Shown: one piece after another, positions 29,710 to 54,395 of the stretch | How positions within the stretch are numbered: position 1 is the first letter of the stretch | Layout: each line of letters opens with the position of its first letter | Assembly (NCBI RefSeq): GCF_900103475.1 | Contig: NZ_FNHG01000001.1 | Coordinates: forward strand, 248,001-312,000 | From: Maricaulis salignorans | Lineage (GTDB): Bacteria; Pseudomonadota; Alphaproteobacteria; Caulobacterales; Maricaulaceae | Direction: 5' to 3' | Length of the DNA stretch: 64,000 nucleotides | Program-made: the position numbers and the translations under genes | The notes under the pieces: generated by a model | What the model saw: only the letters and a program-made list of their open reading frames with translations | Database searches by the model: none | Told to the model about the DNA's origin: nothing

Positions 29710-30566
29710 TTGTCGGGTGCTGCGACACTTTCGAGTGTTTCGCGCCAATCCGAAAAATCCAGGCCGCAGACCTCTTCCAGGCCGATCACCTCGTCATGGA
29801 ATTGCCGGACCAGATCGGCAATGCGCGGTGTCATACGGGCATCCTGGGATGACGTGCGCGCGCTGCCGCCCTGGAACAGTAGACGCTCAACCAGCGGATG
29901 GGATTTGACCGAGCCGACCAGGCTCTGAAGACCGGCATCGCGCAGGCGCCAACCGGCTGATCGCAATATACGCACCAGACCGGCAGACCGCGCAGAGCTT
30001 CCTTCAAGGACTCTGTCTTGATAGGGAAGGTCGGCGATGAAGCGGATGCCGAGCGCGTCGGATACGCTCTGGCCAAACTGAAGCGGGTCACTGGCAAGGT
30101 CTTCAAATTTCAAAATCTTTATTCGATCCCGGCCCAGCAAGTTGATCGCTTGCTGCACGGGGCGCAGGTAAAGACTATGGGAGGTGAGCCCGGTATGGGT
30201 TTCCAGCGCCGCGTCAAGCGAGCGTGTGGTTTTGCCGATGCGCTGCAAATAGCGGTGATGGGAGATCGTTCTCAAATACGGATTGCGCAGGAAAATCAGA
30301 AAAACGGCATCATCTTCAAAAAAGTTCGCAATGCGCTCCAATGCCACGGGACTGTAAAGATAGTCGTGACAGATCTCCCCCACTCTCGGCGCATCGAGCC
30401 CCTCAAACTGGCGCGTGTACCAGTCGGTTCCGCGCTCAAAATAGCGATCGAAAAAGAAAAGCTCCTTGGAGGTTGGCAGCCCTGTATCGGGGTGAAGTGA
30501 CAGGAGGCGGTGCAGCCAGGTCGAGCCGCATTTGTCTCCTCCAAGGTAAAGAAAATTCGGCTTCAT
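29703..30566 (-). CDS. Sulfotransferase family protein of the polysaccharide locus
   Basis: The 287-residue protein has the PAPS 5'-phosphosulfate loop GGDKCGSTWLHRLLSLHP at residues 9-26 and the 3'-phosphate segment FLRNPYLRTISHHRYL near residue 92, both typical of carbohydrate sulfotransferases. It is cytoplasmic, with no signal peptide. Between the flippase gene (12 bases upstream) and the export genes, it probably sulfates a sugar of the repeat unit before flipping. Sulfated polymers are common in marine bacteria and algae. No PAPS-synthesis gene (cysNDC) is in the window. Confidence 0.86.
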   Translation of the reverse strand: MKPNFLYLGGDKCGSTWLHRLLSLHPDTGLPTSKELFFFDRYFERGTDWYTRQFEGLDAPRVGEICHDYLYSPVALERIANFFEDDAVFLIFLRNPYLRTISHHRYLQRIGKTTRSLDAALETHTGLTSHSLYLRPVQQAINLLGRDRIKILKFEDLASDPLQFGQSVSDALGIRFIADLPYQDRVLEGSSARSAGLVRILRSAGWRLRDAGLQSLVGSVKSHPLVERLLFQGGSARTSSQDARMTPRIADLVRQFHDEVIGLEEVCGLDFSDWRETLESVAAPDNQ

Positions 30567-39623: not shown

Positions 39624-41495
39624 ATGACGAGTTCAGCAAAATCCTATGCCCCGCTGTTCCGGATCGATCCGGGATTGAGCCTGTCCTTGCAGGAGCAGAT
39701 CCGACGGCGTGTGATGGAAGCGATTGCCGCGGACATATTCCCGGCCGGGCGCAAATTGCCGTCATCGCGCAAGCTCGCCAACGAACTGGGTGTGTCCCGC
39801 AATACGGTTTTCCTGGCCTATCAGCAATTGATCGCCGAGGGGCATCTGGAAGCGCGGCAACGTTCGGGTATTTATGTTGCCGAGGCGACCGCGCCGGACC
39901 GGAAAATGTCGCTGATCGCCGGTCCGGAGGACGCCGGGGAGGGGGCAGCGGCGACGCGCTTTCTGCGCGGTGTCCGGCCGCCGTCTCATGGTTATAAATG
40001 CCCCCCAGATTGGCAGAAATACCCCTTCCCCTTCATCGAGGGGCGCTATGACAAAACGCTGTTTCCGATCGCGGAGTGGCGGGAATCCAGCCGCCTAGCC
40101 CTGGCGGTCAATGAGGTTGAGGAGTGGTCGCTCGACAATGGCGAGGTCGATGATCCGGCCCTGATCGAGGAAATCCGCACCAAACTGTTGCCCCGCAGGG
40201 GCATTCGGGCGCGGCCGGATGAATTGCTGATTACCGTCGGCGAACAGCAGGCCTTCTTTCTCGTTGCCCAATTATTCGCCAATTCCAGAACCCGGGTTGC
40301 GCTGGAAGAGCCCGGCTTGCCTGATTTGCGCGAGATGTTCGCCATGCATGGCGCGCAATTGCATCACCAGCCGGTCGACGATGAGGGTCTGGTTGTTGAT
40401 GACCGTCTGCCAGGGAATGATATCGTCTATGTCTCGCCCAGCCGGCAACGCCCGACCGGGGTAACCATGTCCATGCGCCGGCGCGAGGCGCTGCTTGCCA
40501 TGGCCAGCGAACGCGATTTCCTCATTCTGGAAGACGATTTTGAGTGCGAGATGAATTATCTCGGCGACGCCTTGCCGGCCCTCCGCAGCCTCGATCAGGA
40601 GGGGCGGGTAATCTATATCGCGAGCTTGTCGAAAGTCCTCGCGCCGGGCGTCCGGCTTGGTTTCATGGTTGCGCCGGCGCGTATCATCAATGAAGCCCGG
40701 CGCTTGCGTGACCTGACGACGCGTCGTCCATCGCCAAACAACCAGCGCGCAGCGGCCTTCTTCCTGTCGCTGGGGCATTATGATGCGATGCTGCGCCGTC
40801 TTCGGCGGGTCAGCGAAGAACGGTTGATCGCGCTGCAAAATGCGTTGAACCATTACCGTCCGTCATCAATCGCTGTCGCGCCGGTAGAGGGCGGCACAAC
40901 ATATTGGGTCCGTGGTCCGGCGAATCTCGACGCCCGCGTGCTGGTTCATGCCGCAAAGGCGCGTGGCATACTGATCGAGCCTGCGGATGATTGGTTCGCC
41001 CTGCCCGACGGGGCGAAGAATATGTTCCGCCTCGGCGTGACAGGACTTCCGGCCAGCGAAATCCGGGCCGGAATTGAGGCCCTCTCCCAGGTGATGTTGG
41101 AGCTCGACTCTGCCGCGCCAGCCGCAATGGCCGAATCCGGAACGGGCTGGCTCGGGCCGGAAACGCTCGAGGCGGCGATGAGCAACGCTACGCTGCTCTA
41201 CAATACGGTCTATGGAGAACTCTGCACGATTATGCTCGCCGCGGATGGCAGCATGACCGGCCGGTCCGGCTATGGCGCCGAGGAGCAGGATAGCGGCCGC
41301 TGGTGGGTCGAGGGCGATAGATGGTTTCGCCAGTGGCGTAACTGGGCCTTTGGCGAAGCGATGGGGTTTCACGTCCGTATTTCAGGCGATCGCGTCTCCT
41401 GGCTCGACGAGCAGGGCCGCGTGGTCGATTCCGCCGTTCTCAGTCGAGATCCGGTCGAACCCGCCGATCCGGCCGGCCAGAAGACAAACCCCTGA
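39624..41495 (+). CDS. MocR-family (GntR plus aminotransferase) regulator with extra C-terminal domain
   Basis: The 623-residue protein starts with a GntR winged helix (QIRRRVMEAIAADIFPAGRKLPSSRKLANELGVSRNTVFLAYQQL, as three adjoining helices), then a fold-type I aminotransferase domain (about 130-490) with DDFECEMNY and the PLP-lysine region IASLSKVLAPGVRLG. MocR proteins such as GabR, PdxR and TauR are PLP-dependent regulators of amine and vitamin B6 genes. The last 130 residues are an addition not found in those: a Trp-rich segment (GRWWVEGDRWFRQWRNW) that looks like a small beta domain. It probably controls the following seven genes. Confidence 0.88.
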   Translation: MTSSAKSYAPLFRIDPGLSLSLQEQIRRRVMEAIAADIFPAGRKLPSSRKLANELGVSRNTVFLAYQQLIAEGHLEARQRSGIYVAEATAPDRKMSLIAGPEDAGEGAAATRFLRGVRPPSHGYKCPPDWQKYPFPFIEGRYDKTLFPIAEWRESSRLALAVNEVEEWSLDNGEVDDPALIEEIRTKLLPRRGIRARPDELLITVGEQQAFFLVAQLFANSRTRVALEEPGLPDLREMFAMHGAQLHHQPVDDEGLVVDDRLPGNDIVYVSPSRQRPTGVTMSMRRREALLAMASERDFLILEDDFECEMNYLGDALPALRSLDQEGRVIYIASLSKVLAPGVRLGFMVAPARIINEARRLRDLTTRRPSPNNQRAAAFFLSLGHYDAMLRRLRRVSEERLIALQNALNHYRPSSIAVAPVEGGTTYWVRGPANLDARVLVHAAKARGILIEPADDWFALPDGAKNMFRLGVTGLPASEIRAGIEALSQVMLELDSAAPAAMAESGTGWLGPETLEAAMSNATLLYNTVYGELCTIMLAADGSMTGRSGYGAEEQDSGRWWVEGDRWFRQWRNWAFGEAMGFHVRISGDRVSWLDEQGRVVDSAVLSRDPVEPADPAGQKTNP

Positions 41496-41503
41496 CCCCG
41501 TGA

Positions 41504-41538
41504 ACTGGCCCCATAGTTGGTCCCGATCTGGCTCTAAG
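41504..41538 (+). promoter_or_regulatory. Three tandem CTGG-type direct repeats, candidate MocR operator
   Basis: CTGGCCCCATA, TTGGTCCCGAT and CTGGCTCTAAG follow each other with TGG cores 12 and 11 bases apart, about one helical turn. Closely related units occur before gabD (49985-50050). TauR, a MocR protein of Rhodobacter, is reported to bind CTGGAC(C/T)TAA direct repeats, which are similar. The array lies between the MocR gene and the hydrolase gene. Confidence 0.65.
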
Positions 41539-41628
41539 TCAGCAAAGGCTTCGCTGCCATGGTCGGGAAAAGGCGAAGTGCGTGACCTTGAATGATCGCG
41601 CTGCGCAACCGCACTCAGGGGTAAGTTC

Positions 41629-42549
41629 ATGTCGTTGCTTTCGATTGCCGCCATTCAGCTCGACGCAGCCGTTGACGGCAATCTCGACCTTGTAGAACGC
41701 GAAGTCCGCGCGATCGCGAAGCGTTTTCCATGGATCATCATGGTGGCGATCAGCGAGCTGGCGATTAATGGTGCCAGCCTTGACCAGGCGGAGGCCGCGG
41801 GTGGTCCGACCGAGCGCCGCTTGCAGGCGCTCGCCCAGGAAACCGGCATGTGGCTGATTCCGGGCTCGCTCTATGAGCATCGCGACGGCAAGATCTATAA
41901 CACGACACCCGTCATCGATCCGCACGGCGAGATCATCGCCCGCTACGACAAGATTTTCCCCTTCCTGCCCTATGAGAGTGGCGTTGAGTCGGGAACTGAT
42001 TATGTCGTGTTTGACGTGCCCGGCATCGGCCGCGTGGGTATCGCGATCTGTTACGATATGTGGTTCCCGGAAGCGATCCGCACGATTTGCGCGATGGGTG
42101 CTGAAGTCATCATCCTGCCGACCATGACCAATACGGTCGATCGCGATGTCGAGCTGGCCATTGCCCGCGCCAATGCGGCGATCAACCAGTGCTATTTCGT
42201 TGATATCAATGGGGCCGGCCAGCAAGGCAATGGCCGCTCCGTGGTTTACGGGCCGGGTGGTGAATTACTGCATGAGGCCGGCACGGGCCGCGAGGTGATG
42301 GCGTTCGAGCTGGATCTCGAACAGGCCCGCCGGATGCGCGAGCGTGGCTGGAATGGCCTCGGCCAGGTTCTCAAGAGTTTCCGCGATGCACCGGTACAGT
42401 TCCCGTTGCACGCGGATCCGGCGGCGCGGCAGGCGGGGATGTCCGACCTGGGGCCGCTGATTAAGCCACAAAGGCAGAACGAGGGATCAGCCGATGATGG
42501 CAAGGGGGAAGGCCGGGCGTCAAGGCCCAGGCTTTCGATCATCGAGTGA
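41629..42549 (+). CDS. Carbon-nitrogen hydrolase (nitrilase superfamily)
   Basis: The 306-residue hydrolase shows the Glu-Lys-Cys triad: Glu43 in VAISELAING, Lys in RYDKIFPFLPYE, and Cys in VGIAICYDMWFPEA. Superfamily members hydrolyse amides, nitriles, carbamoyl groups or ureides; the substrate is not readable from sequence. It is cytoplasmic, with no signal peptide. It follows the repeat array at 41504-41538 and lies 63 bases before the TonB receptor gene. In a gab-linked cluster an amidase acting on an imported amide is a reasonable guess. The last 40 residues are low-complexity and probably disordered. Confidence 0.87.
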   Translation: MSLLSIAAIQLDAAVDGNLDLVEREVRAIAKRFPWIIMVAISELAINGASLDQAEAAGGPTERRLQALAQETGMWLIPGSLYEHRDGKIYNTTPVIDPHGEIIARYDKIFPFLPYESGVESGTDYVVFDVPGIGRVGIAICYDMWFPEAIRTICAMGAEVIILPTMTNTVDRDVELAIARANAAINQCYFVDINGAGQQGNGRSVVYGPGGELLHEAGTGREVMAFELDLEQARRMRERGWNGLGQVLKSFRDAPVQFPLHADPAARQAGMSDLGPLIKPQRQNEGSADDGKGEGRASRPRLSIIE

Positions 42550-42612
42550 GGGGACCGGCCTGGACCGGATCGATACAGGGGCCCGGATCAACGGGCAATA
42601 CAGGGTGATGTT

Positions 42613-45000
42613 ATGAGAAAATTTGCACATGAATTCGCTGGCCGGTCGACCATTATGGCCGTGTTGCTGGGCACAACGGCCCTGGCGGGCGGAGCCTTTA
42701 CGCCGGCCTACGCGCAGGACGAGCAAGCCGACAGCCGGCGCGAAACTATCACCGTGACGGCGACGCGCCGTGAAGAGAGCGTTTCGGACGTTCCCTACAA
42801 TATTTCCGCCGTCGGCGGTGGTGATATCGAGCGCGGCAATATCATTGATGAGGCCGAGCTTCTTCGCTCCATTCCGGGTATCGCCGTCGTTGATCGGGGC
42901 GCCCGCAATTCGGGTACGCTGAACGCTGCGCGTATCCGTGGCCTTGCCGTTGATGGTAACGGCCTGGGCGACTACGCCGTGTCGTCAGTGGCCTCGGTCT
43001 CGACCTATATCAACGACACGCCGGTCTTCGCCGGTTTCACGCTGCGTGATCTTGATCGCGTTGAAGTCCTGCGCGGCCCGCAAGGCACATTGTACGGCTC
43101 CGGTTCGTTGGGCGGCACGATCCGCTACATCACGCGCGACCCCGATTTCGGCGAAGTAAATGGCTATATCAGTGGCACGACTTCGAATGTTGAAGGCTCC
43201 GAGGACTGGGGCTATGGCCTCGACGGCGTGCTCAACGTCCCGCTCGGCGAGCGGGCCGCACTGCGCCTGGTCGGTAGCTTCGGCGATTATCCGGGCATCA
43301 CCGACTATGTGAATGTCTATGAGCTGGACGGCAATGGCGTGCCGGTTGCGCCTGGCGGGGTCCTCGATCCGGCCGCCTCCTATCGCTCTGTTGAGGATGC
43401 CGACACAGTCGAAACCTGGATGGGCCGGGCGACTTTCCTGTGGGAGCCAACCGATACCTTCTCCCTGCGTCTGGTGCATGCGCGGCAGTCCGACGATGTC
43501 GGTGGACGCCGGCAGCAGACTGTCGGTGTTGACGGTTTCGGCAATGCCTATGGCGATTACGAAAACGGGTCGATCCAGCTCGAGCCATCCTCGCGCGACA
43601 TCAATATGAGCTCGCTCGAGATGGAGATGGATCTGGGTTTTGCGACCCTGACCTCATCGACGTCGCACTATGATCACAATGGCGATAGTGCCAGCGAAAA
43701 CACGGGCTTCTATGCTCAGGCGGGTTGGCTCGGGCTTTATTATAACTACCCGCGTCCAATGGCGACCGCGATCCGGACCTATGCCGATGAGGCAGTGGTG
43801 CAGGAAATCCGCCTGGTGACCGATGATGGTGGCAATTTCGACTATGTCGTTGGCGGCTTCTACCGGCAGCAGCAAATGGAATCGACGCAGCAAAGCTATC
43901 TGGTCGGCTTCAAGCAGTGGTGGGACGCCTGGATTCCCTTCGCCGCGGGTGCGGTCACGGGCGATCAGGACTGGGATTATCGCCGGATCGAGAATTTCAC
44001 CGAAACGGCTCTGTTCGGTGAACTGACCTGGCATGCCAGCGACGATCTCGATCTGACCCTCGGCGCGCGCTACTTCAACAATGAGTCGGACAATGACACC
44101 TTCATGGCCTTGCCGCTCTGGGCGGGGCTCTTCCCGGAAGTGAATGCCGACCTGTCATCGTCCGAGAATGATGTCTTGTTCAAGTTCAACATGGCTTGGC
44201 GTTTCTCCGATGAGGACATGCTCTACGGCACGATTTCCGAGGGTTATCGCCGCGGTGGATCAAATGCCGTTCCGCTCACTGGCGTCTTCGCCGAGGATCC
44301 GCGCTGGCAGTTCTACACCTCCGATTCCGTGGTCAATTACGAGATTGGCTTCAAGGGTGATCGCGGCGATTTCCGCTATGATGTCAGCGTCTTTTACGTC
44401 GACTGGACTGACCCGCAGTTTAACACCGCCTCGACGTGGTGGGGTTTCTTCGCGGTGCAGAATGCCAGCGAGGCCAGCTCGATGGGCCTGGAAGCATCGA
44501 TCGACGGCTTCATCGGCAATGATTGGCACTACTCGCTGGGCTATGCCTATATCAATGCCGAGCTCGGGGCAGACTTCCATGCGCCGGACCGCCCGGCGCC
44601 AGCGGCCCCGATAGCCCTTGAGGGCGCCATGCTCCCGGGGACGCCGGAGCATCAGCTCAACTGGTCGCTTGATTACACGACACAGCTGGCGAACTGGTCG
44701 TCCTTCACCCGTCTGGATGGCTATTACCAGTCGGAAACGACCAATGCGGTCAGCACGTCGCCGACCTTCAATGTGCCGATCGACGGGTTCTCGATCTGGA
44801 ATCTGACGACGACCTTCTCGCGTGATGCGGTGGATCTGTCTTTCTGGGTGAAGAACATCACCAATGAGGAAGGCATCACCGGCATCTTCACCGAGGCCTA
44901 TATGGGAACGGCTCCGGCTGAGGGTTATTTCGGTAATGCCAACAAGCAGATGATCTCACTGCCCAGAACGATTGGCGCGACGCTGCGCTATAACTTCTGA
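42613..45000 (+). CDS. TonB-dependent outer-membrane receptor
   Basis: The 795-residue receptor has a signal peptide ending TPAYAQ, a TonB-box-like ETITVTATR, a plug domain (VPYNISAVGGGDIER, then VEVLRGPQGTLYGSGSLGGTIRYITRDP) and a 22-stranded-type barrel ending TLRYNF. The plug-barrel motif is complete. The ligand is unknown; many alphaproteobacterial receptors of this style take up sugars, peptides or aromatic compounds rather than siderophores. It lies between the hydrolase and a TPR-sulfotransferase gene that starts 17 bases after it, an adjacency seen repeatedly in Caulobacterales and sphingomonads from general knowledge. Confidence 0.93.
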   Translation: MRKFAHEFAGRSTIMAVLLGTTALAGGAFTPAYAQDEQADSRRETITVTATRREESVSDVPYNISAVGGGDIERGNIIDEAELLRSIPGIAVVDRGARNSGTLNAARIRGLAVDGNGLGDYAVSSVASVSTYINDTPVFAGFTLRDLDRVEVLRGPQGTLYGSGSLGGTIRYITRDPDFGEVNGYISGTTSNVEGSEDWGYGLDGVLNVPLGERAALRLVGSFGDYPGITDYVNVYELDGNGVPVAPGGVLDPAASYRSVEDADTVETWMGRATFLWEPTDTFSLRLVHARQSDDVGGRRQQTVGVDGFGNAYGDYENGSIQLEPSSRDINMSSLEMEMDLGFATLTSSTSHYDHNGDSASENTGFYAQAGWLGLYYNYPRPMATAIRTYADEAVVQEIRLVTDDGGNFDYVVGGFYRQQQMESTQQSYLVGFKQWWDAWIPFAAGAVTGDQDWDYRRIENFTETALFGELTWHASDDLDLTLGARYFNNESDNDTFMALPLWAGLFPEVNADLSSSENDVLFKFNMAWRFSDEDMLYGTISEGYRRGGSNAVPLTGVFAEDPRWQFYTSDSVVNYEIGFKGDRGDFRYDVSVFYVDWTDPQFNTASTWWGFFAVQNASEASSMGLEASIDGFIGNDWHYSLGYAYINAELGADFHAPDRPAPAAPIALEGAMLPGTPEHQLNWSLDYTTQLANWSSFTRLDGYYQSETTNAVSTSPTFNVPIDGFSIWNLTTTFSRDAVDLSFWVKNITNEEGITGIFTEAYMGTAPAEGYFGNANKQMISLPRTIGATLRYNF

Positions 45001-45017
45001 TCGGATAGGATGACGGG

Positions 45018-46622
45018 GTGGCCGACCGAGACGGTCACCCCGTCGCTGCTTCCATGGATAGTCTGATCGCCAATCCCGCACCCAAGACCCGAATGGCCGA
45101 GATCGACCGCGCCCTGCGTGCCCGGCAGCTCGGGCCGGCGCGGTCCATGCTCACGGCGCTGCTGCGTGACGAGCCGGGATATGTCGAGGCCTGGATTGCG
45201 GCCGCGCGGCTGGAACAGATGGGCGGTGACCATGCCGCCATGCGCCAGCATTTGTCGCAAGCGCTTGTACTGGCGCCCAATTCCCCCCTCGTTCGCCTGC
45301 TCGATGTTGAGGCCCTGGTGCATCTTGGAGCGATCCGGGAGGCTATGGATAATCTGGGTGTGATGGAGGCCGAGGCGGGTCAGGATTCGGCCTGGATGAG
45401 CCGGCTCAGTGAGTCCTATACCCAGTGCGGAGCCTTCGAGGCGGCGGAGCGGTGTGCGCGGCAGGCGGTGGCGCTTGATCCGGAGCAGCCGGCGATCCGG
45501 TATAATTTTGCCTCGAGCTTGATCGCGACCGGCAAGCTTGAAGAATCCGAACGTGAATTCAATCAATTACTGGCCCGGACGCCGCATGATTATGACGCGT
45601 ATTACAACCGCGCGACGCTGCGAAAGCAGACGGTGGAGGATAATCATCTCGCCGAGATCCAGCGCATGCTCAAGGCGCCGAAACGGACCCGGCTGGGCGA
45701 GGTTCAGTTGAACTATGCCCTTGCTTTGGAACTGGAAAATCTCGGTCAGTTTGAGGAAAGCTTTGTCGCGCTGAAGCGGGGCGCCGAGGCCCGGCGGGCG
45801 ATGATGGCCTATCGGGTCGAGGGCGATGTCGCGACAATGGCGCGGATTGCCGAGGTTTTTGATGCCGGGTTTTTCGCCCGGCAACGCCCGTGCGATAATG
45901 CCCAAAGCCCTGTTTTCGTACTGGGTTTGCCGCGAAGTGGCACAACCCTGGTCGACCGGATTCTCAGCGCCCATCCCTTGATCGAAAGCTTGGGCGAGCT
46001 CAATGACTGGCCGCTGGCGCTGACCGGTCTGACCCGTGGCAGCCGCGATAAATCGGACATGGTTTCAAGGTCTGGCGCCCTGGACATGCGCAAGCTTGCT
46101 GCTGACTACCTGTTACGCGTCAGCGAGCGTCGGGCTGACCTGCCATTCTTCATCGACAAGGCCCCGGCTAATTTTCTCTATATTGGTCTGATCGCCGCGG
46201 CGCTGCCGAATGCGCGCATCATCCACCTCAATCGCGATCCGATGGACAATGCCCTGGGGATGTACAAGGCGCTTTTCCGGATGGGTTATCCCTTCTCCTA
46301 CGACTTCTCGGATCTGGCCCAATACATGCGCGCCAAGGACCGGTTGATGGATCACTGGCGCCGCGTGCTGCCGGGTCGGATCCTCGATGTGAATTACGAG
46401 GACATCATCACCGACCAGGAGGGCGAGACGCGTCGCCTGCTGGATCATGTCGGTGTCGACTGGGACCCGGCCTGTCTCGACTTCCACAAGAATGCGAGCC
46501 CGACAGCGACGGCGAGCGCGGCACAGGTGCGCCAGCCGCTGTATGGCAGCGCGGTGGGGCGCTGGCGCCGCTATGAGCGCGAACTGGCGCCGCTGGCCGA
46601 GATGCTTGGAGTGACATCATGA
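45018..46622 (+). CDS. TPR-containing sulfotransferase family protein
   Basis: The 534-residue protein has N-terminal tetratricopeptide repeats (about residues 20-230; ARSMLTALLRDEPGYVEAW is one unit) and a C-terminal sulfotransferase domain with the PAPS loop VFVLGLPRSGTTLVDRILSAHP at about residue 300 and HLNRDPMDNALGMYKALF. GTG 45018 follows AGGA; ATG 45054 is an alternative. It could sulfate a peptide, lipid or small molecule. Why this gene type so often follows TonB receptors is not established. It overlaps the serine hydrolase gene by 4 bases. Confidence 0.88.
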   Translation: MADRDGHPVAASMDSLIANPAPKTRMAEIDRALRARQLGPARSMLTALLRDEPGYVEAWIAAARLEQMGGDHAAMRQHLSQALVLAPNSPLVRLLDVEALVHLGAIREAMDNLGVMEAEAGQDSAWMSRLSESYTQCGAFEAAERCARQAVALDPEQPAIRYNFASSLIATGKLEESEREFNQLLARTPHDYDAYYNRATLRKQTVEDNHLAEIQRMLKAPKRTRLGEVQLNYALALELENLGQFEESFVALKRGAEARRAMMAYRVEGDVATMARIAEVFDAGFFARQRPCDNAQSPVFVLGLPRSGTTLVDRILSAHPLIESLGELNDWPLALTGLTRGSRDKSDMVSRSGALDMRKLAADYLLRVSERRADLPFFIDKAPANFLYIGLIAAALPNARIIHLNRDPMDNALGMYKALFRMGYPFSYDFSDLAQYMRAKDRLMDHWRRVLPGRILDVNYEDIITDQEGETRRLLDHVGVDWDPACLDFHKNASPTATASAAQVRQPLYGSAVGRWRRYERELAPLAEMLGVTS

Positions 46623-48790
46623 TACGGACCGCGATTGTGACCCTGGGGCTGCTGGCCGGGCTGAATGCGCCGGCCATGGCCCAGACCCTGATGTCCGAGG
46701 ACTTCCAGGACGGCAATGCTGAGGGCTGGCGCGGCGATGCCGGGCGGGGCGAGATCCGGATCACGGAGTATGCGGGCAATTTCTCGCTGCGGCTGCAGCG
46801 CAATGCCTGGGTTGCGGCGGCGGTGCAGATCCCGGCCGGGCAGGCGATCCGGATCTCCGCCGACTTCGCCGCCGAAGGGCTGGAGGGCGATGATGCCTGC
46901 CAGCTCGAAACCAGTTTCGACGGCCAGGACTGGACCGGGATCGGCCGTATTGAAGACGGGCAGGATGACGGCGTCACCCTGACATCAGTCGGCGGCGACC
47001 TGCCGGCGGCAGAGATGGAGCGCGCCATGCTGGTGCGCCTGCGCGCTGCGGGCAATGCAGCCAATGACACATGCTGGGTGGATAATATTCGCGTCACCGG
47101 ACAAACCCCGCTCGCGGCGCTGACACCGGCGCTGGCGGCGCAGACCCTGTTCGCGGTGGCACCGCTGTCAGGGCCCTATTCGACGTCCGCTTTCGCGGCG
47201 CCGGACGACGTGGCGTCCTCATCGGCGAGCCTCAATGGGCGGCTGGTGCTGGCGACGGCCCACCGCGCCGACCGGTTCGCGCTCTTGCTTGATGAATTCG
47301 ACGCCGCATCGCGCGCCGACCGGCTTGACGAATTGCCTGCCTTCGCGATCGACCTGCTCAGTGACGGGCAGGACCTGATCCCGGTTCAGCGCGGGCCGCA
47401 GCAAGGTGATCATCCGGAGTGGGAATGGATTTTCCAGCCGGGCCGGATCTGGGATGGTGGTGATGGCGAGGGCTGGATGCGCGCAGCCCTGCCGGTGGCG
47501 CTGCAGGAACGCAATGCCAATTGCGTCCAGAACGGGTTGATGAGTTTCCTGTATCGCGAGAGTGGCGAGATCTCGCAGGCGGTTGTGCAGTTCGGTGCCC
47601 AGACCTGCGCCTACCTGCAGTTCGATCTTCTGGCGCGTCTGCCCGTCAGCTTCGAGCCGGGTGAAGCCGCTGCTGTCGTCGCGGGGGCTGTACGACAGGC
47701 CTGGCGCAGCGAGCGCGCGGCGCGCCTGCCGCGTTCGCCGCTTGGTGATCTGGCGCTGGCCCATCCCCAGGTCGACCTCGCCGAAATCGGCTCGCCGCTT
47801 GAAGTGACACCGGAAAACATGACCGCCTTTGCCCTGGTTGCCGATGGCCGTTTCTTTGCGGGCGACTGCCCGACTCGTCAGGGGCCGGACCCGTATTGCG
47901 ATGTGACGCCCTTGCCCTCCTATTCCGTGGCGAAGTCCGTGGTTGGCGGGATTGGCCTGATGCGGCTGGAGCAGCTCTATCCGGGGGCGCGTCAGGCGCT
48001 GATCGCTGATTATGTGCCGCAATGCACGGCCGCGCGCTGGGGTGATGTCACCTTCGAACAGGCGCTCGACATGGCGACCGGGAATTATACCTCGGACGTC
48101 TATGATCTCGACGAGGCCTCGGCCCCGACCTGGGATTTCCTGACGGTCGAAACCCATGCCGAAAAAGTCGCGCGCGCCTGTGCCATGCACCCCCGCCAGG
48201 CCGAGCCCGGCAGCACATGGGTTTATCACACCACCGACACTTATCTGCTCGGCACCGCCATGCAGGCCTATCTGCGCCAGCAGAGCGGCGTGGCCGATGC
48301 CGATGTCTACGACACGCTGCTGGTGCCGATCTGGCAGGCGCTGTCGCTTTCGCCGCTGGCGATGCAGACCCGCCGCACCCGCGATGCCGAGGCCCAGGCC
48401 TTCACCGGCTGGGGTCTGACCCTGTCGGCGGATGACATGGCCCGGATGGCGCTCTTTCTTCAGGCCGACGGCGTGATTGATGGCGAGGCCTGGCTCGACC
48501 AGGGCCTGCTCGCCGCCGCCCTGCAACGCAATCCCGATGATCGCGGCCTGCCGTCGATCGAGGACAATCTGCGTTATCGGGCCGGTTTCTGGGCCTATAA
48601 TGCGGGCCATTATCTCGGCTGTGACCATGATGTCTGGATCCCGACCATGTCGGGCTATGGCGGCATATCCGTCACCCTGATCCCCAATGGTCATGTCTAT
48701 CTCTATGCCAGTGACGGGCGCGAATTCTCCTGGCGCCGGGCCGTGGCCCAATCGAATGCCATCCAACCCTTTTGTGAGGCCGTGCCATGA
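46619..48790 (+). CDS. Exported serine hydrolase, beta-lactamase/DD-peptidase fold
   Basis: The 723-residue protein has a signal peptide ending APAMAQ (about residue 22). Residues 23-165 look like a carbohydrate-binding-type beta sandwich (SEDFQDGNAEGWRGDAGRG to CWVDNIRVTG). The catalytic domain from about 380 has the Ser-x-x-Lys motif in PSYSVAKSVVGGIG and a tyrosine motif VYHTTDTYLLG, as in class C beta-lactamase relatives and esterases. It probably acts in the periplasm on an ester, amide or peptide that arrives through the TonB receptor. It overlaps the sulfotransferase and MFS genes by 4 bases on each side, so all three are coupled. Confidence 0.86.
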   Translation: MIRTAIVTLGLLAGLNAPAMAQTLMSEDFQDGNAEGWRGDAGRGEIRITEYAGNFSLRLQRNAWVAAAVQIPAGQAIRISADFAAEGLEGDDACQLETSFDGQDWTGIGRIEDGQDDGVTLTSVGGDLPAAEMERAMLVRLRAAGNAANDTCWVDNIRVTGQTPLAALTPALAAQTLFAVAPLSGPYSTSAFAAPDDVASSSASLNGRLVLATAHRADRFALLLDEFDAASRADRLDELPAFAIDLLSDGQDLIPVQRGPQQGDHPEWEWIFQPGRIWDGGDGEGWMRAALPVALQERNANCVQNGLMSFLYRESGEISQAVVQFGAQTCAYLQFDLLARLPVSFEPGEAAAVVAGAVRQAWRSERAARLPRSPLGDLALAHPQVDLAEIGSPLEVTPENMTAFALVADGRFFAGDCPTRQGPDPYCDVTPLPSYSVAKSVVGGIGLMRLEQLYPGARQALIADYVPQCTAARWGDVTFEQALDMATGNYTSDVYDLDEASAPTWDFLTVETHAEKVARACAMHPRQAEPGSTWVYHTTDTYLLGTAMQAYLRQQSGVADADVYDTLLVPIWQALSLSPLAMQTRRTRDAEAQAFTGWGLTLSADDMARMALFLQADGVIDGEAWLDQGLLAAALQRNPDDRGLPSIEDNLRYRAGFWAYNAGHYLGCDHDVWIPTMSGYGGISVTLIPNGHVYLYASDGREFSWRRAVAQSNAIQPFCEAVP

Positions 48791-49983
48791 GTGAAGCCAA
48801 TGAAGCCGTCACCGGGCCGCGCGGTCTGCCCAAGGCGCCCCCCAACGGGCTGATCGCCGCCGTCATGCTGGCATTCCTCGCCACAGCCGGCCTGTTCTAC
48901 GTCAATATCATGGCCGCCATCGTCGATGGCCTGGTCAGCGGGCTGGGCTTTACCGAAGGCCAGGCCGGACAGATTGGCTCGGTCAATATCTATGGCGCCG
49001 CTGCCGGTGCGCTGCTCTCGGTCTTCCTGGTCAAACGCCTGCCCTGGAAAGCGCTGGCGCTGGGCTGCCTGATCGTGTTGATCGCGATCGATCTCGCCTC
49101 GATCAGCATTGCCAGTTATGACGTCATGTTCCCGGTGCGCCTGATCCATGGCGTTTTCGGCGGCGTGCTCACGGGAACCGGTTTTGCCGTCATCGCCCGC
49201 ACCGCCAATCCCGACCGCAGTTTCGGCATGTTGCTCTTCGTACAATTCGGTCTCGGCGGTCTGGCGGTGATGGTCTTGCCACCCCTGGCGCCGCTCTACG
49301 GCACCCAGGCGCTGTTTATCGCCCTGGCCCTGTTCAGTGCTGTCACCCTGGCCATGCTGCCCTTCCTCTCGGCCTATCCGGCCCGGATCAAGGACCCCGC
49401 CGCCGACGGCAAGGTGCAATGGACGCCGCTTCTGTTGACCCTGCTGGCGATTTTCCTGTTCCAGGCCGCCAATATGGGCCTGCTCGCCTATATCATCCGG
49501 CTTGGCCTCGATTACGGGCTTGAGCGCGGCTATGTCTCGCTGGCGCTCGGGCTGGCGACCTGGGTCGCCCTGGCCGGGCCTCTACTGGTGATGGTGTTCG
49601 GCCTGCGTTTCGGGCGTTTGCGTCTGCTGGCGGCCGCGATGGCGCTGACCCTCGTGGGGACCGCCATCTTCCATTACAGCGGCAGCCCGATCGCCTATAT
49701 GGTCGCCAATTGCGGCACCGGCATCACCTGGGGATTTGTCATCGCCTATCTGCTCGGCATGACGGCCGAGTTCGACAAGGCGGGCCAGGCCTCGGCCTTT
49801 GGCGGATTCATCTCCAAGCTCGGACTGGCCTCCGGCCCCATGGTCGCCGGCTGGGCGCTCTCGACCGATGGCGGTTTCCCCGGCCTGATCAATCTGGCCC
49901 TGATCGGGCTGGGCGTGAGCGGTCTGGTCATGCTGTTGCCGGCGCGAATACTCGATCGCAAGCGCGCCGAGGCCACCCTCTGA
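48787..49983 (+). CDS. Major facilitator superfamily transporter
   Basis: The 398-residue protein has twelve hydrophobic segments. The loop-2 region is degenerate (LVKRLPWKALALG), and the RTANPDRSFGMLLFVQFGLGG stretch lies in the fifth segment area. No substrate can be inferred from sequence. Context suggests import of the compound or fragment handled by the serine hydrolase before cytoplasmic breakdown by the C-N hydrolase and GabT/GabD. It starts inside the hydrolase stop (ATGA). Confidence 0.85.
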   Translation: MSEANEAVTGPRGLPKAPPNGLIAAVMLAFLATAGLFYVNIMAAIVDGLVSGLGFTEGQAGQIGSVNIYGAAAGALLSVFLVKRLPWKALALGCLIVLIAIDLASISIASYDVMFPVRLIHGVFGGVLTGTGFAVIARTANPDRSFGMLLFVQFGLGGLAVMVLPPLAPLYGTQALFIALALFSAVTLAMLPFLSAYPARIKDPAADGKVQWTPLLLTLLAIFLFQAANMGLLAYIIRLGLDYGLERGYVSLALGLATWVALAGPLLVMVFGLRFGRLRLLAAAMALTLVGTAIFHYSGSPIAYMVANCGTGITWGFVIAYLLGMTAEFDKAGQASAFGGFISKLGLASGPMVAGWALSTDGGFPGLINLALIGLGVSGLVMLLPARILDRKRAEATL

Positions 49984-49984
49984 T

Positions 49985-50050
49985 CTGGTTCGATCCGCTG
50001 GCCCAAACTGGCCCTATGGCGGCCGGCACGAAGCCGTAAACTGGCCCCGG
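49985..50050 (+). promoter_or_regulatory. CTGG-type direct repeats before gabD, candidate MocR operator
   Basis: CTGGTTCGAT (49985), CTGGCCCAAA (49998), CTGGCCCTAT (50008) and CTGGCCCCGG (50041) lie in the 105-base gap before gabD, with starts 13, 10 and 33 bases apart. AACTGGCCC(C/T)AT is shared with the array at 41504. The repeats suggest that gabDT has its own MocR-controlled promoter within the cluster. Confidence 0.65.
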
Positions 50051-50088
50051 ATTTCATTTGACGCCTTATCATGTCGAGAGGGACTGCC

Positions 50089-51546
50089 ATGTTGGCCACA
50101 CTACCGGCTTGCCCAACCCAGGCTTATATCGGCGGCCATTGGTGCGACGCGGAGGATGGACGCCGTTTCGACGTCACCAATCCGGCGACCGGTGCCGTCA
50201 TCGCTTCAGTCGCCGATTGCGGCGTCACCGAGACGCGCGCCGCGATTGCCGCGGCCAAGGCGGCGCAGGCCGGCTGGGCGGCCTTGCCGGCTGGTCCGCG
50301 CGGCGCGATCCTGCGGCGCTGGCGCGATCTGATGGTCGAGCGCGCCGACGAACTGGCCCTGATCCTGACCCGAGAGAATGGCAAACCGCTCACCGAGGCG
50401 CGCGGCGAAATCCTTTATGGCGCCTCCTATCTGGAATGGTTCGCCGAGGAAGCGAAGCGTATCTATGGCGAAATCATTCCCTCTGCCTCGGCCAATAATC
50501 GCATTCTTGTGACCAAACAGCCGGTCGGGGTCTGTGCCGCGATCACGCCGTGGAATTTTCCCAATGCGATGCTGATGCGCAAGGCCGCCGCGGCGCTCGC
50601 CGCCGGTTGCACCATGGTCGCCAAACCAGCCGCCGAGACCCCGCTCTCGGCGCTGATCGCGGCCCAACTCGGCATTGAGGCCGGTGTACCCGCCGGTGTG
50701 TTCAATATCGTCACCTCGACGCGGGCCGCCGAGGTTGGCGGTGAGCTGACCGCCAGCCCGGACGTGCGCAAGATCACCTTCACCGGCTCGACCGCTGTTG
50801 GCCGCCTGCTATTGCAGCAATCGGCTGCGACGGTGAAAAAGGCGTCGATGGAGCTCGGCGGCAATGCGCCCTTCATCGTGTTTGACGATGCCGATCTCGA
50901 TGCGGCGATCGAGGGCGCGATGGCGTCGAAATTTCGCAATGCCGGCCAGACCTGCGTTTGCGCCAACCGGATGTTCGTCCAGTCGGGCATCATGCCGGAA
51001 TTCGCCAGGCGGCTGGCTGCGCGCGTTGCGGCCCTCAAAGTCGGCGATGGTGAGATGGCGGGCTGCGAAGTCGGCCCGTTGATCAATGAGGCCGGCTTTG
51101 CCAAGACCGAGCGCCTTGTCGCCGAGGCCCGGGAGGCGGGCGCCAGGGTCCTGGCCGGCGGTGCCAGGCACGCCGCTGGCGAGCTGTTCTACCAGCCGAC
51201 CGTGATCGAAGGCGTCACGCCGGAGATGAGCGTCGCCCAGGAAGAGATTTTCGGACCGGTCGCGCCATTGATCGGCTTTAAGACCGAGGCCGAGGTGATC
51301 GCCCTGGCCAATGACACGATTTACGGCCTCGCCGCCTATCTCTTCACCCGTGATCTCGGCCGCGCCTGGCGCGTCGGTGAGGCGCTGGAATACGGCATGG
51401 TCGGTATCAATGAGGGCATCATGTCCTCGGCCGCCGCGCCGTTCGGCGGCGTCAAGCAATCGGGCTTTGGCCGCGAAGGTTCGCGCCAGGGTCTCGAGGA
51501 TTATCTCGACACCAAATACATGTTGATGGGAGGCCTGTCGGCCTGA
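50089..51546 (+). CDS. gabD: NAD(P)-dependent succinate-semialdehyde dehydrogenase
   Basis: The 485-residue aldehyde dehydrogenase has the GabD-type sequence ITPWNFPNAMLMRKAAAALAAG, FTGSTAVGR, the catalytic Glu in MELGGNAPFIVF and the catalytic Cys in NAGQTCVCANR. It oxidises succinate semialdehyde to succinate. ATG 50089 follows AGAGGGA; the frame opens at 50071 without a good ribosome site. It is paired with gabT, 20 bases on. Related semialdehydes (glutarate, malonate) cannot be excluded. Confidence 0.92.
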   Translation: MLATLPACPTQAYIGGHWCDAEDGRRFDVTNPATGAVIASVADCGVTETRAAIAAAKAAQAGWAALPAGPRGAILRRWRDLMVERADELALILTRENGKPLTEARGEILYGASYLEWFAEEAKRIYGEIIPSASANNRILVTKQPVGVCAAITPWNFPNAMLMRKAAAALAAGCTMVAKPAAETPLSALIAAQLGIEAGVPAGVFNIVTSTRAAEVGGELTASPDVRKITFTGSTAVGRLLLQQSAATVKKASMELGGNAPFIVFDDADLDAAIEGAMASKFRNAGQTCVCANRMFVQSGIMPEFARRLAARVAALKVGDGEMAGCEVGPLINEAGFAKTERLVAEAREAGARVLAGGARHAAGELFYQPTVIEGVTPEMSVAQEEIFGPVAPLIGFKTEAEVIALANDTIYGLAAYLFTRDLGRAWRVGEALEYGMVGINEGIMSSAAAPFGGVKQSGFGREGSRQGLEDYLDTKYMLMGGLSA

Positions 51547-51566
51547 GCGCCGGGGGAGATCAGACA

Positions 51567-52841
51567 ATGACAAATTCAACACTCTGGGCCGAACGTCAGG
51601 CCGCCACTCCGCGTGGTGTCGGCGTCATGCATCCGGTCTTCGCCAAACGCGCGCTCAATGCCGAAATCTGGGATATCGAGGATAATCGCTATATCGATTT
51701 CGCGGCCGGGATCGCCGTCACCAATACCGGCCATAATCACCCCAGGGTGAAGGCCGCCGTCGCCGCCCAGCTCGATAATTTCTCGCATGTCTGTTTCCAG
51801 GTCACGCCTTATGAGAGCTATGTCCGGCTGGCCGAGAAGCTCAACAAGCTGGCACCGGGACCGACGCCGAAGAAGACGATCTTCCTGAGCACCGGCGCCG
51901 AAGCGGTCGAGAATGCCGTCAAGATCGCCCGCGCGGCCACAGGCCGTCCGGCGGTCATCGCCTTTGCCGGCGGATTCCATGGGCGCACGATGATGGGTAT
52001 GGCGCTGACCGGCAAGGTCGCGCCCTACAAGCTTGGTTTCGGGCCTTTCCCCGGCGAGGTCTTCCACGCGCCATTCCCCGCGCCCTATATCGGTATTGAG
52101 GAAGCGGACTCGCTCAAGGCGCTGCACCAGCTCTTCAAGGCCGATGTCGATCCGGCCCGCGTCGCCGCCATCATCATCGAGCCCGTCCAGGGCGAGGGCG
52201 GTTTCTATGCCGCATCCCCGGCCTTCATGCAGGCCCTGCGCGCGATCTGTGACGAGCACGGTATTCTCATGATCGTCGACGAGATCCAGACCGGCTTTGC
52301 CCGCACCGGCCGCATGTTTGCGACCGAATATGCCGATATCGAGCCGGACCTGATGACCATCGCCAAGGCCATGGCCGGCGGTTTCCCGATCTCCGGTGTC
52401 ATCGGCAAGGCCGAGATCATGGACGCACCCGCGCCCGGCGGTCTGGGCGGTACCTATGGCGGCTCACCGCTCGGCTGTGCGGCCGGCCTGGCTGTACTCG
52501 ATGTCATCGCTGAGGAAGGCCTGTGCGAACGCGCCGTCGAAATCGGCGACCGCATTGTGCGCCGCTGTGAAGCGATCCGTCAGTCCGATACCGGCATTGG
52601 CGATATCCGCACGCTCGGCGCCATGACGGCGATTGAGATGGTCGAGGATGGCGATGCCACACGCCCCGATCCGGGCCGCACCGCCCGCATTGTCGCGCAG
52701 GCCCGCCAGCGCGGTCTGCTGCTCCTGTCCTGCGGCGTGCGCGGCAATGTCATCCGCTTCCTCACCCCGCTGACGATTGGTTTCGACACGCTCGATGAAG
52801 GCCTCGACGCGCTCGAAGCCGCGATCAAGGCGTCCAGCTAG
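51567..52841 (+). CDS. gabT: 4-aminobutyrate--2-oxoglutarate aminotransferase
   Basis: The 424-residue class III aminotransferase removes the amine from GABA or a similar omega-amino acid. Visible are the PLP-binding GAEAVENAVKIARAATGR, IVDEIQTGFARTGRMFA with the conserved Asp, and the PLP-lysine motif TIAKAMAGGFP. The start follows GGGGGAGAT. With gabD it forms the GABA shunt exit to succinate. The MocR regulator at the head of the cluster resembles GabR, which controls gabTD in Bacillus. Confidence 0.92.
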   Translation: MTNSTLWAERQAATPRGVGVMHPVFAKRALNAEIWDIEDNRYIDFAAGIAVTNTGHNHPRVKAAVAAQLDNFSHVCFQVTPYESYVRLAEKLNKLAPGPTPKKTIFLSTGAEAVENAVKIARAATGRPAVIAFAGGFHGRTMMGMALTGKVAPYKLGFGPFPGEVFHAPFPAPYIGIEEADSLKALHQLFKADVDPARVAAIIIEPVQGEGGFYAASPAFMQALRAICDEHGILMIVDEIQTGFARTGRMFATEYADIEPDLMTIAKAMAGGFPISGVIGKAEIMDAPAPGGLGGTYGGSPLGCAAGLAVLDVIAEEGLCERAVEIGDRIVRRCEAIRQSDTGIGDIRTLGAMTAIEMVEDGDATRPDPGRTARIVAQARQRGLLLLSCGVRGNVIRFLTPLTIGFDTLDEGLDALEAAIKASS

Positions 52842-52916: not shown

Positions 52917-54395
52917 TCAGCCAGCCTGTGCGGCGCGCAGGCGCGGGCCATCGGCCCAGGCGGCATGGGTGCCACTGGATATCCGGTGTGGCAGGATGAT
53001 GCGGCAGACCGGTCCGGCCTCGAAATTTTTGGCGTCGATCAGCACGCATTCCGACCGGTCTTCAACCATGTCGGTGATGAAGGAGACGAGATAGCCGTCA
53101 TCCTCGTCCACTGCTCCGATGCGCGGTGCAAACGGGGCTTCGCTGCCATAGCGCCCTTCACCGAAGGACAGGCTTTGCGACTGGCCGGTCTCGTCATCAT
53201 GCTTGACCGCGCCCGTGAAGAGGAACCAGCCCGGCTTGGTCGTGGTCGAATAGGCATAGCGGGTCTTGGTGCCGGCACGCTCCTGATTGAACGTTCCGAA
53301 TTCCAGGATGCGGTCGTCGAGATGGCCTTCCGTGCAGGCCCCGGTCTTCATGTTGAAGCGCCAGCGATGCAGTTTCGGCTTGAAGGAATTCTCGTCGACG
53401 AAGGCCATCAAATGCCCCATGCGCGGATCGGGATGATTGATCTCCAGCGCGCCGGGGACGGGCTGTTCCTGGAAATAGCCGTCGAGGACGATTTCATCGC
53501 CCTCTTCCCAGGCATTCATCCAGTGCAGGACATAGGTCGGGTCGGCCTCGAACCATTTGATCTGCTCGGGTGAGCCATAGCGCGGGACGATCGCGAACCG
53601 GGTCGGCATATCGCGGTGGAAACGGGTCGCATGGCGCCCCTTTGCCAGCGCCTCGGGATCCCAGAAGAGCGGCAGGTCGGCGAAGATCGAATATTTCCTG
53701 GTAAAGGCCATATCGTGCGGCAGGCGCGGCCCCGGCAGCGGGATCGGGATGTAATGCTTGAGCTTGTTGTCCGGCCCGACGACGCCGTAATGCATGTAGG
53801 GCGCGTGGGTGGAATAGTTGAAGAACAGCAATTCGCCGGTCTCTTCATCGACCTTGGGATGGGCCGAGATACCGTCCAGCGGCACCCAGCTTTCCGTGCC
53901 GAATTGCTCCAGCGTGTACGGGTCGAGCCGGTAGCCCTCGCCGCACTGGTAGAAGGTCGACAATATCTTGCCGGCATGGACCACGACATCGGTCGAGGAA
54001 CTGTCCTTGACCGAGCCATGCGCGCCCCAGCCCGGGCGGGTGGAGAGGCGTGGATTCTCGGCGATGCCGGCCCAGAGCGCCTTGCCCGCCTCGGCCTCGG
54101 CGGCGAAGGCCTTGGTGCGGACCAGACGGTTATGATAGGCGGCCTGGCCGTCGCGGAAGGAGATCGCATGGATCATCCCGTCGCCGTCAAAGGGATGGTA
54201 GAGCCCGATCGAGCCATGCACCGGGTTTTCCGTATTGCGCACATAGACCCCGTCAATATCGCTCGGGATCTCGCCGATCACCTCCATCTTGTCGGCATCA
54301 TACTCGTCGAAATTCGGCGTCCAGGCGCCCGACATATAGGGATGGCGCGGATCGGGCGGCGTGTGGGCAATCGTGTTGATCTTGATAGCGCTCAT
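52917..54395 (-). CDS. Carotenoid oxygenase/lignostilbene dioxygenase family enzyme
   Basis: The 492-residue enzyme belongs to the iron-dependent carotenoid-cleavage family. Visible pieces are the N-terminal GEIPSDIDGVYVRN, YHPFDGDGMIHAISF, and four spaced candidate iron histidines in SAHPKVDEETGEL, PHDMAFTRKYS, VLHWMNAWEEGDE and the C-terminal SSGTHAAWADG. It is 492 residues, in the family range. Substrate (apocarotenoid or stilbene-like) is not deducible. Its start overlaps the DUF1295 gene stop by one base, so the two are co-translated. Confidence 0.9.
   Translation of the reverse strand: MSAIKINTIAHTPPDPRHPYMSGAWTPNFDEYDADKMEVIGEIPSDIDGVYVRNTENPVHGSIGLYHPFDGDGMIHAISFRDGQAAYHNRLVRTKAFAAEAEAGKALWAGIAENPRLSTRPGWGAHGSVKDSSSTDVVVHAGKILSTFYQCGEGYRLDPYTLEQFGTESWVPLDGISAHPKVDEETGELLFFNYSTHAPYMHYGVVGPDNKLKHYIPIPLPGPRLPHDMAFTRKYSIFADLPLFWDPEALAKGRHATRFHRDMPTRFAIVPRYGSPEQIKWFEADPTYVLHWMNAWEEGDEIVLDGYFQEQPVPGALEINHPDPRMGHLMAFVDENSFKPKLHRWRFNMKTGACTEGHLDDRILEFGTFNQERAGTKTRYAYSTTTKPGWFLFTGAVKHDDETGQSQSLSFGEGRYGSEAPFAPRIGAVDEDDGYLVSFITDMVEDRSECVLIDAKNFEAGPVCRIILPHRISSGTHAAWADGPRLRAAQAG

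Follow-up and report, generated by a model that had tools for sequence, protein, structure and literature searches.

What compound is handled by a block of eight consecutive genes in the marine alphaproteobacterium Maricaulis salignorans, in which a MocR-type regulator gene and a gabD-gabT pair flank genes for two hydrolases, a TonB receptor, a sulfotransferase and a transporter? The block lies in a stretch of 64,000 nucleotides (positions 248,001-312,000 of NZ_FNHG01000001.1, in a 3.1-Mb genome), which we call the window and to which coordinates refer. The eight genes are a conserved unit whose content is much alike in many distantly related bacteria. From sequence comparisons we consider it probable that the locus is dedicated to the use of amide-linked chains of gamma-aminobutyric acid (GABA), that is, oligo- or poly-GABA, or of closely similar gamma-aminobutyryl amides. 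Polyamide-4 (nylon-4) is poly-GABA, and GABA chains are the best substrate candidate because the exported serine hydrolase is linked by sequence to the Nyl4A polyamide-4 hydrolases and GabT and GabD share the locus. The features of the locus are as follows.

39624-41495 (+), MocR-type regulator of 623 residues, with a GntR winged helix-turn-helix, an aminotransferase-like domain and a C-terminal beta-barrel-like domain at about residues 492-610
41505-41536 (+), putative operator 1, CTGGCCCCA-N14-CTGGCTCTA, a perfect match upstream of the C-N hydrolase gene
41629-42549 (+), C-N hydrolase (P0002) of the nitrilase superfamily, proposed cytoplasmic hydrolase of GABA oligomers or amides
42613-45000 (+), TonB-dependent outer-membrane receptor, proposed GABA oligomer importer
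45018-46622 (+), TPR-sulfotransferase, a relative of protein-tyrosine sulfotransferases
46619-48790 (+), serine hydrolase (P0005) of the Nyl4A (polyamide-4 hydrolase) group, exported, with a signal sequence judged by eye
48787-49983 (+), MFS transporter, proposed inner-membrane importer
49985-50016 (+), putative operator 2, CTGGTTCGA-N14-CTGGCCCTA, with one mismatch, upstream of gabD
50071-51546 (+), GabD, succinate-semialdehyde dehydrogenase, above the TIGR01780 cut-off
51567-52841 (+), GabT, 4-aminobutyrate transaminase, above the TIGR00700 cut-off

A first-pass annotation of this DNA had described eight plus-strand genes of these families, many of them linked by 4-base overlaps or short gaps, and both statements were borne out. 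All eight open reading frames were confirmed between 39624 and 52841, and Pfam and NCBIfam models matched GntR plus Aminotran_1_2, CN_hydrolase, a TonB receptor with plug, TPR plus Sulfotransfer_3, a beta-lactamase-fold serine hydrolase and MFS_1 in the first six. The GABA shunt pair, GABA transaminase and succinate-semialdehyde dehydrogenase, is present by the NCBIfam models TIGR00700 (603.9 bits on GabT, cut-off 506.65) and TIGR01780 (666.8 bits on GabD, cut-off 646.35). GabT is the only close transaminase of its kind in its own genome (next best, 38%), and a second GabD copy, 52% identical, lies elsewhere in that genome. Overlaps of 4 base pairs (bp) join the serine hydrolase gene to the sulfotransferase gene before it and to the MFS gene after it. 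The remaining gaps measure 133 bp (mocR to C-N hydrolase), 63 bp (C-N hydrolase to TonB), 17 bp (TonB to sulfotransferase), 87 bp (MFS to gabD) and 20 bp (gabD to gabT). The two longest each contain one putative operator, and given these two putative operators the genes perhaps form two transcripts, one running from the C-N hydrolase to the MFS gene and the other comprising gabD-gabT.

Conservation of the unit was assessed by scanning P0002 against 84,980 species genomes and keeping the best 80 of at least 569 related places. The eight proteins were compared to these loci by tblastn, followed by a frame-based recount that included four regions from further genomes of the family. Counting a locus as a cassette when it held the C-N hydrolase and the TonB receptor with most other genes present, we obtained 41 cassette loci, 37 among the 80 best loci and 4 among 11 additional regions. 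This number is a lower bound, since L097, which has MocR, C-N hydrolase, TonB receptor and sulfotransferase by tblastn, stands outside it. The TonB receptor and C-N hydrolase occur in all 41, the serine hydrolase in 39, the MFS protein and the sulfotransferase in 38 each, MocR in 35, GabD in 28 and GabT in 26 (including two weak 27-30% matches, in L037 and L046); many stretches stop at contig or flank borders, so that absences are partly artefacts. Adjacency was counted as well: C-N hydrolase and TonB genes are neighbours in 37 of 41 loci, MocR and C-N hydrolase in 32 of 35, and serine hydrolase and MFS in 30 of 38. TonB and sulfotransferase genes are the sole pair of 28 adjacent in every locus with both (38/38; the 14 highest pairs were listed).

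Genera with cassette loci include Maricaulis, Citromicrobium, Algimonas, Euryhalocaulis, Caulobacter, Brevundimonas, Phenylobacterium, Novosphingobium, Pseudoxanthomonas, Arenimonas, Dokdonella, Simiduia, Alteromonas and Salinimonas. Gene order varies by lineage, running GabT, MocR, C-N hydrolase, TonB, sulfotransferase, MFS, GabD, serine hydrolase in Dokdonella and Pseudoxanthomonas. Because order shifts between lineages while content mostly persists, a functional link among the genes is indicated. Synteny is thus not limited to gabDT, the outcome that would have spoken against the unit proposed by the first-pass annotation: across the 41 loci the other six genes keep together more constantly than gabDT. 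Extra genes gave no substrate clue in the 13 of 41 loci inspected by eye with single proteins scanned; M20, LysR-like, LuxR, TetR-like and other genes were seen, none recurring. In one locus (L060, 267-4663) the cassette carries LuxR-type and TetR-like (by eye) regulator genes and no MocR match. Around a single MocR gene in Simiduia (L063, 1211-19342) stand two Nyl4A-type hydrolases and two TonB-sulfotransferase pairs.

The substrate proposal starts from the serine hydrolase. At the limits used, the only sequence match of P0005 in the PDB was PIB-1 (8RLJ), an entry also cited in the description of Nyl4Apx, an enzyme from Pseudoxanthomonas sp. TN-N1 that degrades polyamide-4, and of a marine relative, Nyl4Apa (PMC13269358). 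Nyl4Apx is a secreted protein of 841 residues with S554, K557 and Y655 and an anchor D domain spanning N158-D261; its primers encode the mature start QTTTIF and the end APMCP (PMC13269358). In Pseudoxanthomonas sp. 3HH-4 the serine hydrolase sits inside a cassette (L061), is likewise 841 residues long, and has Y553, S554, K557 and Y655. Its choice-of-anchor D match covers residues 172-261, agreeing with the published end and differing at the start (158 published). Its mature start QTTTLF and end APMCS are each one residue off the primer-encoded ends, and the two mature-end primers mismatch the L061 gene at 4 of 20 and 4 of 18 positions. From the published numbers, the domain calls and the primer-encoded ends, we infer that the L061 protein is the Nyl4Apx orthologue.

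Measured pairwise against the L061 protein, P0005 is 39% identical overall, 34% in the N-terminal part and 43% in the catalytic part (32% and 41% for the two parts in the multiple alignment). The reported values for Nyl4Apa against Nyl4Apx are 39%, 34% and 48%, respectively (PMC13269358). By sequence, the distance between P0005 and the L061 protein is about that between the two proven enzymes, with somewhat lower catalytic identity. P0005 S436, K439 and Y536 align with S554, K557 and Y655 of the L061 protein, giving an S-x-x-K motif and a Tyr about 100 residues after the Ser, and Ser, Lys and Tyr are kept in 37 of 37 aligned serine hydrolases (two actinobacterial proteins and the reference included). 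The AlphaFold model of P0005 (mean predicted local distance difference test score, pLDDT, 88.8) places strands at residues 23-162 and 207-347 and the catalytic domain from about 350. The predicted order of N-terminal beta sandwich, beta barrel and beta-lactamase fold is the published Nyl4A order minus the optional middle domain, and the middle Ig-like domain of Nyl4Apx is likewise absent from Nyl4Apa (PMC13269358).

Foldseek searches with the model returned Lsa45 first, followed by PIB-1 and numerous NylB hydrolases of the nylon-6 dimer; EstG, AmpC enzymes and esterases ranked further down. Of these, PIB-1, NylB and EstG are relatives reported for Nyl4Apx (PMC13269358). Because Lsa45, AmpC enzymes and esterases match too, the fold by itself is unspecific for amide chains. 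Taken together, sequence and model assign P0005 to the Nyl4A polyamide-4 hydrolase group, and P0005 would be predicted to cleave polyamide-4. Nyl4Apx is reported to release GABA 2-4-mers and Nyl4Apa 2-3-mers; the latter was reported inactive on polyamide 6 and 6-aminohexanoate-dimer and showed no beta-lactamase activity (PMC13269358).

The second hydrolase follows the first with great fidelity. E43, K108 and C141, the Glu-Lys-Cys of the nitrilase superfamily, are invariant in 21 aligned C-N hydrolases (an alignment that excludes L051). The best PDB match of P0002 is NIT2, and it matched models of small-amide amidases only weakly. In the family, 14 of 137 genomes carry the C-N hydrolase (E value 1.5e-100 or better; next best 2.8e-22) and 14 of 137 carry the serine hydrolase (1e-30 or better), and the two genome sets are identical; the probability of drawing identical sets at random, with kinship ignored, is 2e-19. 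Both are patchy within the genus, and because merely 4 of 19 members have the pair, the two genes appear to be gained or lost as a unit.

A version of this pair also occurs on plasmids. Partial serine hydrolase homologues were found on seven plasmid records (five from Streptomyces, one each from Rhodococcus and Paracoccus), none covering 80% of the query; in the two that were aligned, most of the N-terminal domain is absent. In all four actinobacterial plasmid stretches inspected, a C-N hydrolase 38-40% identical to P0002 lies beside the serine hydrolase. LysR and APC permease genes accompany both hydrolases in the three annotated stretches, and the unannotated Rhodococcus record has LysR-like and permease-like frames as judged by eye. 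The other six cassette proteins, including the TonB receptor and the sulfotransferase, had no matches in these four stretches. Because the two hydrolases travel together where an outer membrane is absent, the catalytic core appears separable from the outer-membrane parts.

Evidence on regulation came from the regulator itself and from its presumed binding sites. Beyond its GntR and aminotransferase-like domains the MocR protein carries at its C terminus a further domain, about 120 residues long (window 41097-41453), present in 37 related regulators aligned, with 54% mean column identity in 28 sequences and one match in its own genome. Pfam and NCBIfam searches gave no family match for this domain. 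It is predicted to be a small beta barrel (pLDDT 85.5) with weak Foldseek neighbours (best E value 3.3e-3), and it could conceivably sense a ligand, though this is speculative. A direct repeat, CTGGNNCYA-N14-CTGGNNCYA, with 23-bp spacing, is common to the loci ahead of the C-N hydrolase gene. Half-site pairs less than 60 bp apart number 51 across the window region plus 37 loci, and 39 of them are spaced by exactly 23 bp; this spacing was found 0 times in 19 of 20 shuffles and once in the other. A first guess at the operator, with a different spacing, had given chance-level counts and was dropped.

Perfect operators number 41 in the 740 kb of the 41 cassette loci vs 2 in the 818 kb of 43 other loci (overlapping repeats in L045 were counted as two sites). 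Just before the C-N hydrolase gene stand 28 of these 41 (in 26 loci) and before GabD or GabT 7; loci with one or more perfect operators number 28 of 41. In the M. salignorans genome the perfect operator is unique, at 41505, and four one-mismatch sites include one before gabD (49985). One-mismatch sites carry no weight alone, because a reversed control pattern gave nine such hits in the same genome. Putative operator 2 is nevertheless supported, because a one-mismatch site recurs directly before gabD in four of five other loci scanned (L127, L031, L036 and L129; not L033), L036 being the copy of the locus in Maricaulis maris DSM 4734. We conclude from these sequence patterns that MocR control of the locus is likely.

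The first-pass annotation had found no obvious place for the sulfotransferase, a view overturned by its invariable position next to the TonB receptor gene in the loci with both. The protein matches protein-tyrosine sulfotransferases of the TPST1/2 type over the catalytic domain (E value 2.3e-9), and its PRSGTT loop together with R306, E327 and K381, aligned with TPST residues, is conserved in at least 95% of 33 sequences; we take these three residues to be the catalytic Arg, Glu and Lys. In L054 and L131 the serine hydrolase gene directly follows the receptor gene and the sulfotransferase is absent. A search for a sulfated tyrosine compared 35 receptors that have a sulfotransferase neighbour with three that do not. 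No acceptor was singled out, because the 14 conserved tyrosine columns are also Tyr in the latter, the exception being Y545, which is Phe in one.

The M. salignorans genome has six Sulfotransfer_3 genes in frames of more than 500 residues, and TPR repeats were confirmed in all four scanned. Besides the cassette gene, one lies just upstream of the window, where a TonB receptor, a TPR-sulfotransferase and a BCCT transporter follow in series (L122, 2440-8714), a layout as in the cassette that presumably serves another nutrient. Another stands in the series TPR-sulfotransferase, TPR-2-oxoglutarate (2OG)-Fe(II) oxygenase and TonB receptor (L123, 268-7562), which suggests that TPR-type modifying enzymes accompany receptors. 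For the remaining three, no receptor gene is nearby in the gene list. The window also holds a second, short sulfotransferase gene at 29703-30566 (-), with no TPR match. On the simplest reading, the sulfotransferase would serve in receptor maturation, whatever the nutrient.

These observations can be arranged into a pathway. The exported Nyl4A-type serine hydrolase would cut the chain, either extracellularly or in the periplasm, to short GABA oligomers; these would cross the outer membrane via the TonB receptor and enter the cytoplasm through the MFS protein; and the C-N hydrolase, which co-occurs with the serine hydrolase, would split the remaining amide bonds to yield GABA. GabT and GabD, as assigned by the curated models, would then convert GABA to succinate. 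Footprinting of the locus sequences suggests that MocR, GabR-like in logic, probably acts on the two direct-repeat operators in response to a presumed inducer. The TPR-sulfotransferase, adjacent to the receptor gene, would be the receptor's partner and perhaps modifies it before export. An amide-linked substrate, its cleavage, import, amide hydrolysis and the GabT/GabD steps had been foreseen in the first-pass annotation, and these fit and are sharpened by the Nyl4A link. Its placing of uptake before periplasmic cleavage is unproven, because Nyl4Apx is secreted and would cut outside.

Several observations weigh against GABA chains as the substrate. Poly-GABA is synthetic, we know of no natural GABA polymer, and polyamide-4 might be cleaved as a side reaction. 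The true substrate might then be a gamma-aminobutyryl conjugate, such as an N-acyl-GABA or a lipid, phenolic or peptide amide of GABA, which we regard as possible but rather unlikely. The NIT2 likeness of the C-N hydrolase and its weak matches to small-amide models would suit such a conjugate, as would the M20 peptidase-family gene added in one related locus (L101). A chain is better matched by two amidases in succession and by the oligomers released by both Nyl4A enzymes, and the sparing of polyamide 6, 6-aminohexanoate-dimer and beta-lactams by Nyl4Apa points to GABA-GABA bonds (PMC13269358). Some points touch the enzyme assignment: Lsa45 heads the Foldseek matches, which also include AmpC enzymes and esterases; 9 of 31 serine hydrolases listed have 533-584 residues, the N-terminal binding domain being absent; the orthology of the L061 protein with Nyl4Apx is drawn from published numbers, ends and domain calls; and the primer for the Nyl4Apx signal-peptide start fits L061 poorly (7 of 21 mismatches). 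GabD is absent from 13 and GabT from 15 of the 41 loci in the stretches covered, some of which are cut by borders. In favour of GABA chains, Stenotrophomonas, Aestuariibacter and Agromyces belong, we presume, in or near groups found here. All three are named as nylon-4 degraders in a review passage (PMC13215870) together with Pseudomonas and Fusarium, which correspond to nothing found here and so count on the other side.

The regulator and the C-N hydrolase each allow a different account. MocR scores 343.1 bits against the NCBIfam PdxR model, above its cut-off of 320 (for the Bacillus-type GabR model NF052285 the score is 195.4 bits, below the cut-off of 600), and 13 of 41 loci lack a perfect operator, which tempers the MocR control claimed in the first-pass annotation and otherwise supported by the operators before the C-N hydrolase gene and gabD. 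That the protein is a PdxR for vitamin B6 genes, its position here accidental, is hardly credible in view of those conserved putative operators, the adjacency of MocR to the C-N hydrolase gene and the conserved additional C-terminal domain. Of the eight genes none matches a vitamin B6 gene model, and the one perfect operator of the genome stands before the C-N hydrolase gene. The C-N hydrolase family, for its part, occurs in other settings too (Accumulibacter, Halomonas, Marinobacter). In L081, L104, L056 and L050 its neighbours are an ATP-grasp protein, of PRK06524 type in L081, and a protein resembling Orn/Lys/Arg decarboxylases, so matched by Pfam in L081 and L104. In Rhodocyclaceae and Accumulibacter this arrangement occurs close to GabT/GabD, in Halomonas next to the ectoine gene doeB. 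These settings in Accumulibacter, other Rhodocyclaceae and Halomonas gave no substrate clue. The decarboxylase-like neighbour would agree with a polyamine or carbamoyl route in which the enzyme, an N-carbamoylputrescine-type amidase, feeds putrescine and GABA catabolism, and the N-carbamoylputrescine amidase (AguB) model is indeed the best NCBIfam match of P0002. That match, however, scores 72.3 bits, below the cut-off of 410.25, no putrescine aminotransferase or deiminase was found among the eight genes by Pfam and NCBIfam, and a Nyl4A-type hydrolase would be left without a role, making this route very improbable.

Scans for promoters (4 found vs 2.9 in shuffles, standard deviation 1.6) and terminators (7 vs 9.2, standard deviation 2.9) gave no clear excess, and two proteins tried against PHROGs had no matches. 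Directly downstream of the cassette, on the opposite strand, lies a gene resembling RPE65-family carotenoid- or stilbene-cleaving dioxygenases (52917-54395, -).

Among described systems, the nylon-6 oligomer pathway continues with an aminotransferase and a semialdehyde dehydrogenase, as the cassette does, and we know of no TonB receptor or sulfotransferase in it. It further shares a beta-lactamase-fold amidase acting with additional amidases (NylA/B/C; PMC13215870) and differs in its six-carbon unit; Foldseek places NylB structures high among the matches of P0005, yet those listed have 14-16% sequence identity to it. Nyl4Apx and Nyl4Apa share with P0005 the domain order, the Ser-Lys-Tyr residues and export, with about 39% identity of P0005 to the inferred orthologue in L061. 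The part of their description considered here deals with the enzyme only and does not cover a gene cluster, uptake, regulator or downstream pathway (PMC13269358). Proteobacterial GabR regulons likewise place a MocR regulator over gabT/gabD (Suvorova and Rodionov 2016, PMC5320631), and MocR motifs are for the most part repeats that contain TGT or TGG. Their GabR motif in Proteobacteria has two direct and one inverted repeat, whereas the putative cassette operator has two direct repeats, and the extra C-terminal domain distinguishes the cassette protein from those regulators. The main text of that paper, supplement tables apart, never mentions TonB, sulfotransferase, amidase or nitrilase. Eukaryotic TPST1/2 share the catalytic-domain match and the three conserved residues with the cassette sulfotransferase, which differs in its N-terminal TPR repeats, the lack of an export signal by eye and the tie of its gene to TonB receptors. 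No account of this gene set appears among the titles and abstract openings listed, a scope that does not reach the 2022-2024 Nyl4 papers.

If our proposal is correct, an enzyme of plastic degradation becomes linked to a whole conserved pathway, with the missing steps after the first cut proposed, and the cassette provides a marker set for organisms that use polyamide-4. The bacterial TPR-sulfotransferase also becomes testable, because its likely partner is encoded by the neighbouring gene in all 38 loci with both. Caulobacter, Brevundimonas, Phenylobacterium, Streptomyces and an apple-rhizosphere Rhodococcus are among the loci, which points to an old, widespread, non-plastic substrate and hints that there may be an undescribed natural GABA polymer or conjugate. 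A bolder version, which we offer tentatively and think doubtful as a whole, is that amide-linked GABA chains are a natural and widespread nutrient and that the locus is their proteobacterial uptake and catabolic system, of which actinobacterial plasmids carry a permease-based form. If so, polyamide-4 would be degradable as a copy of the natural chain, the sulfotransferase would be specific for the TonB receptor and modify it while still in the cytoplasm, and the extra domain of MocR would be the oligomer sensor.

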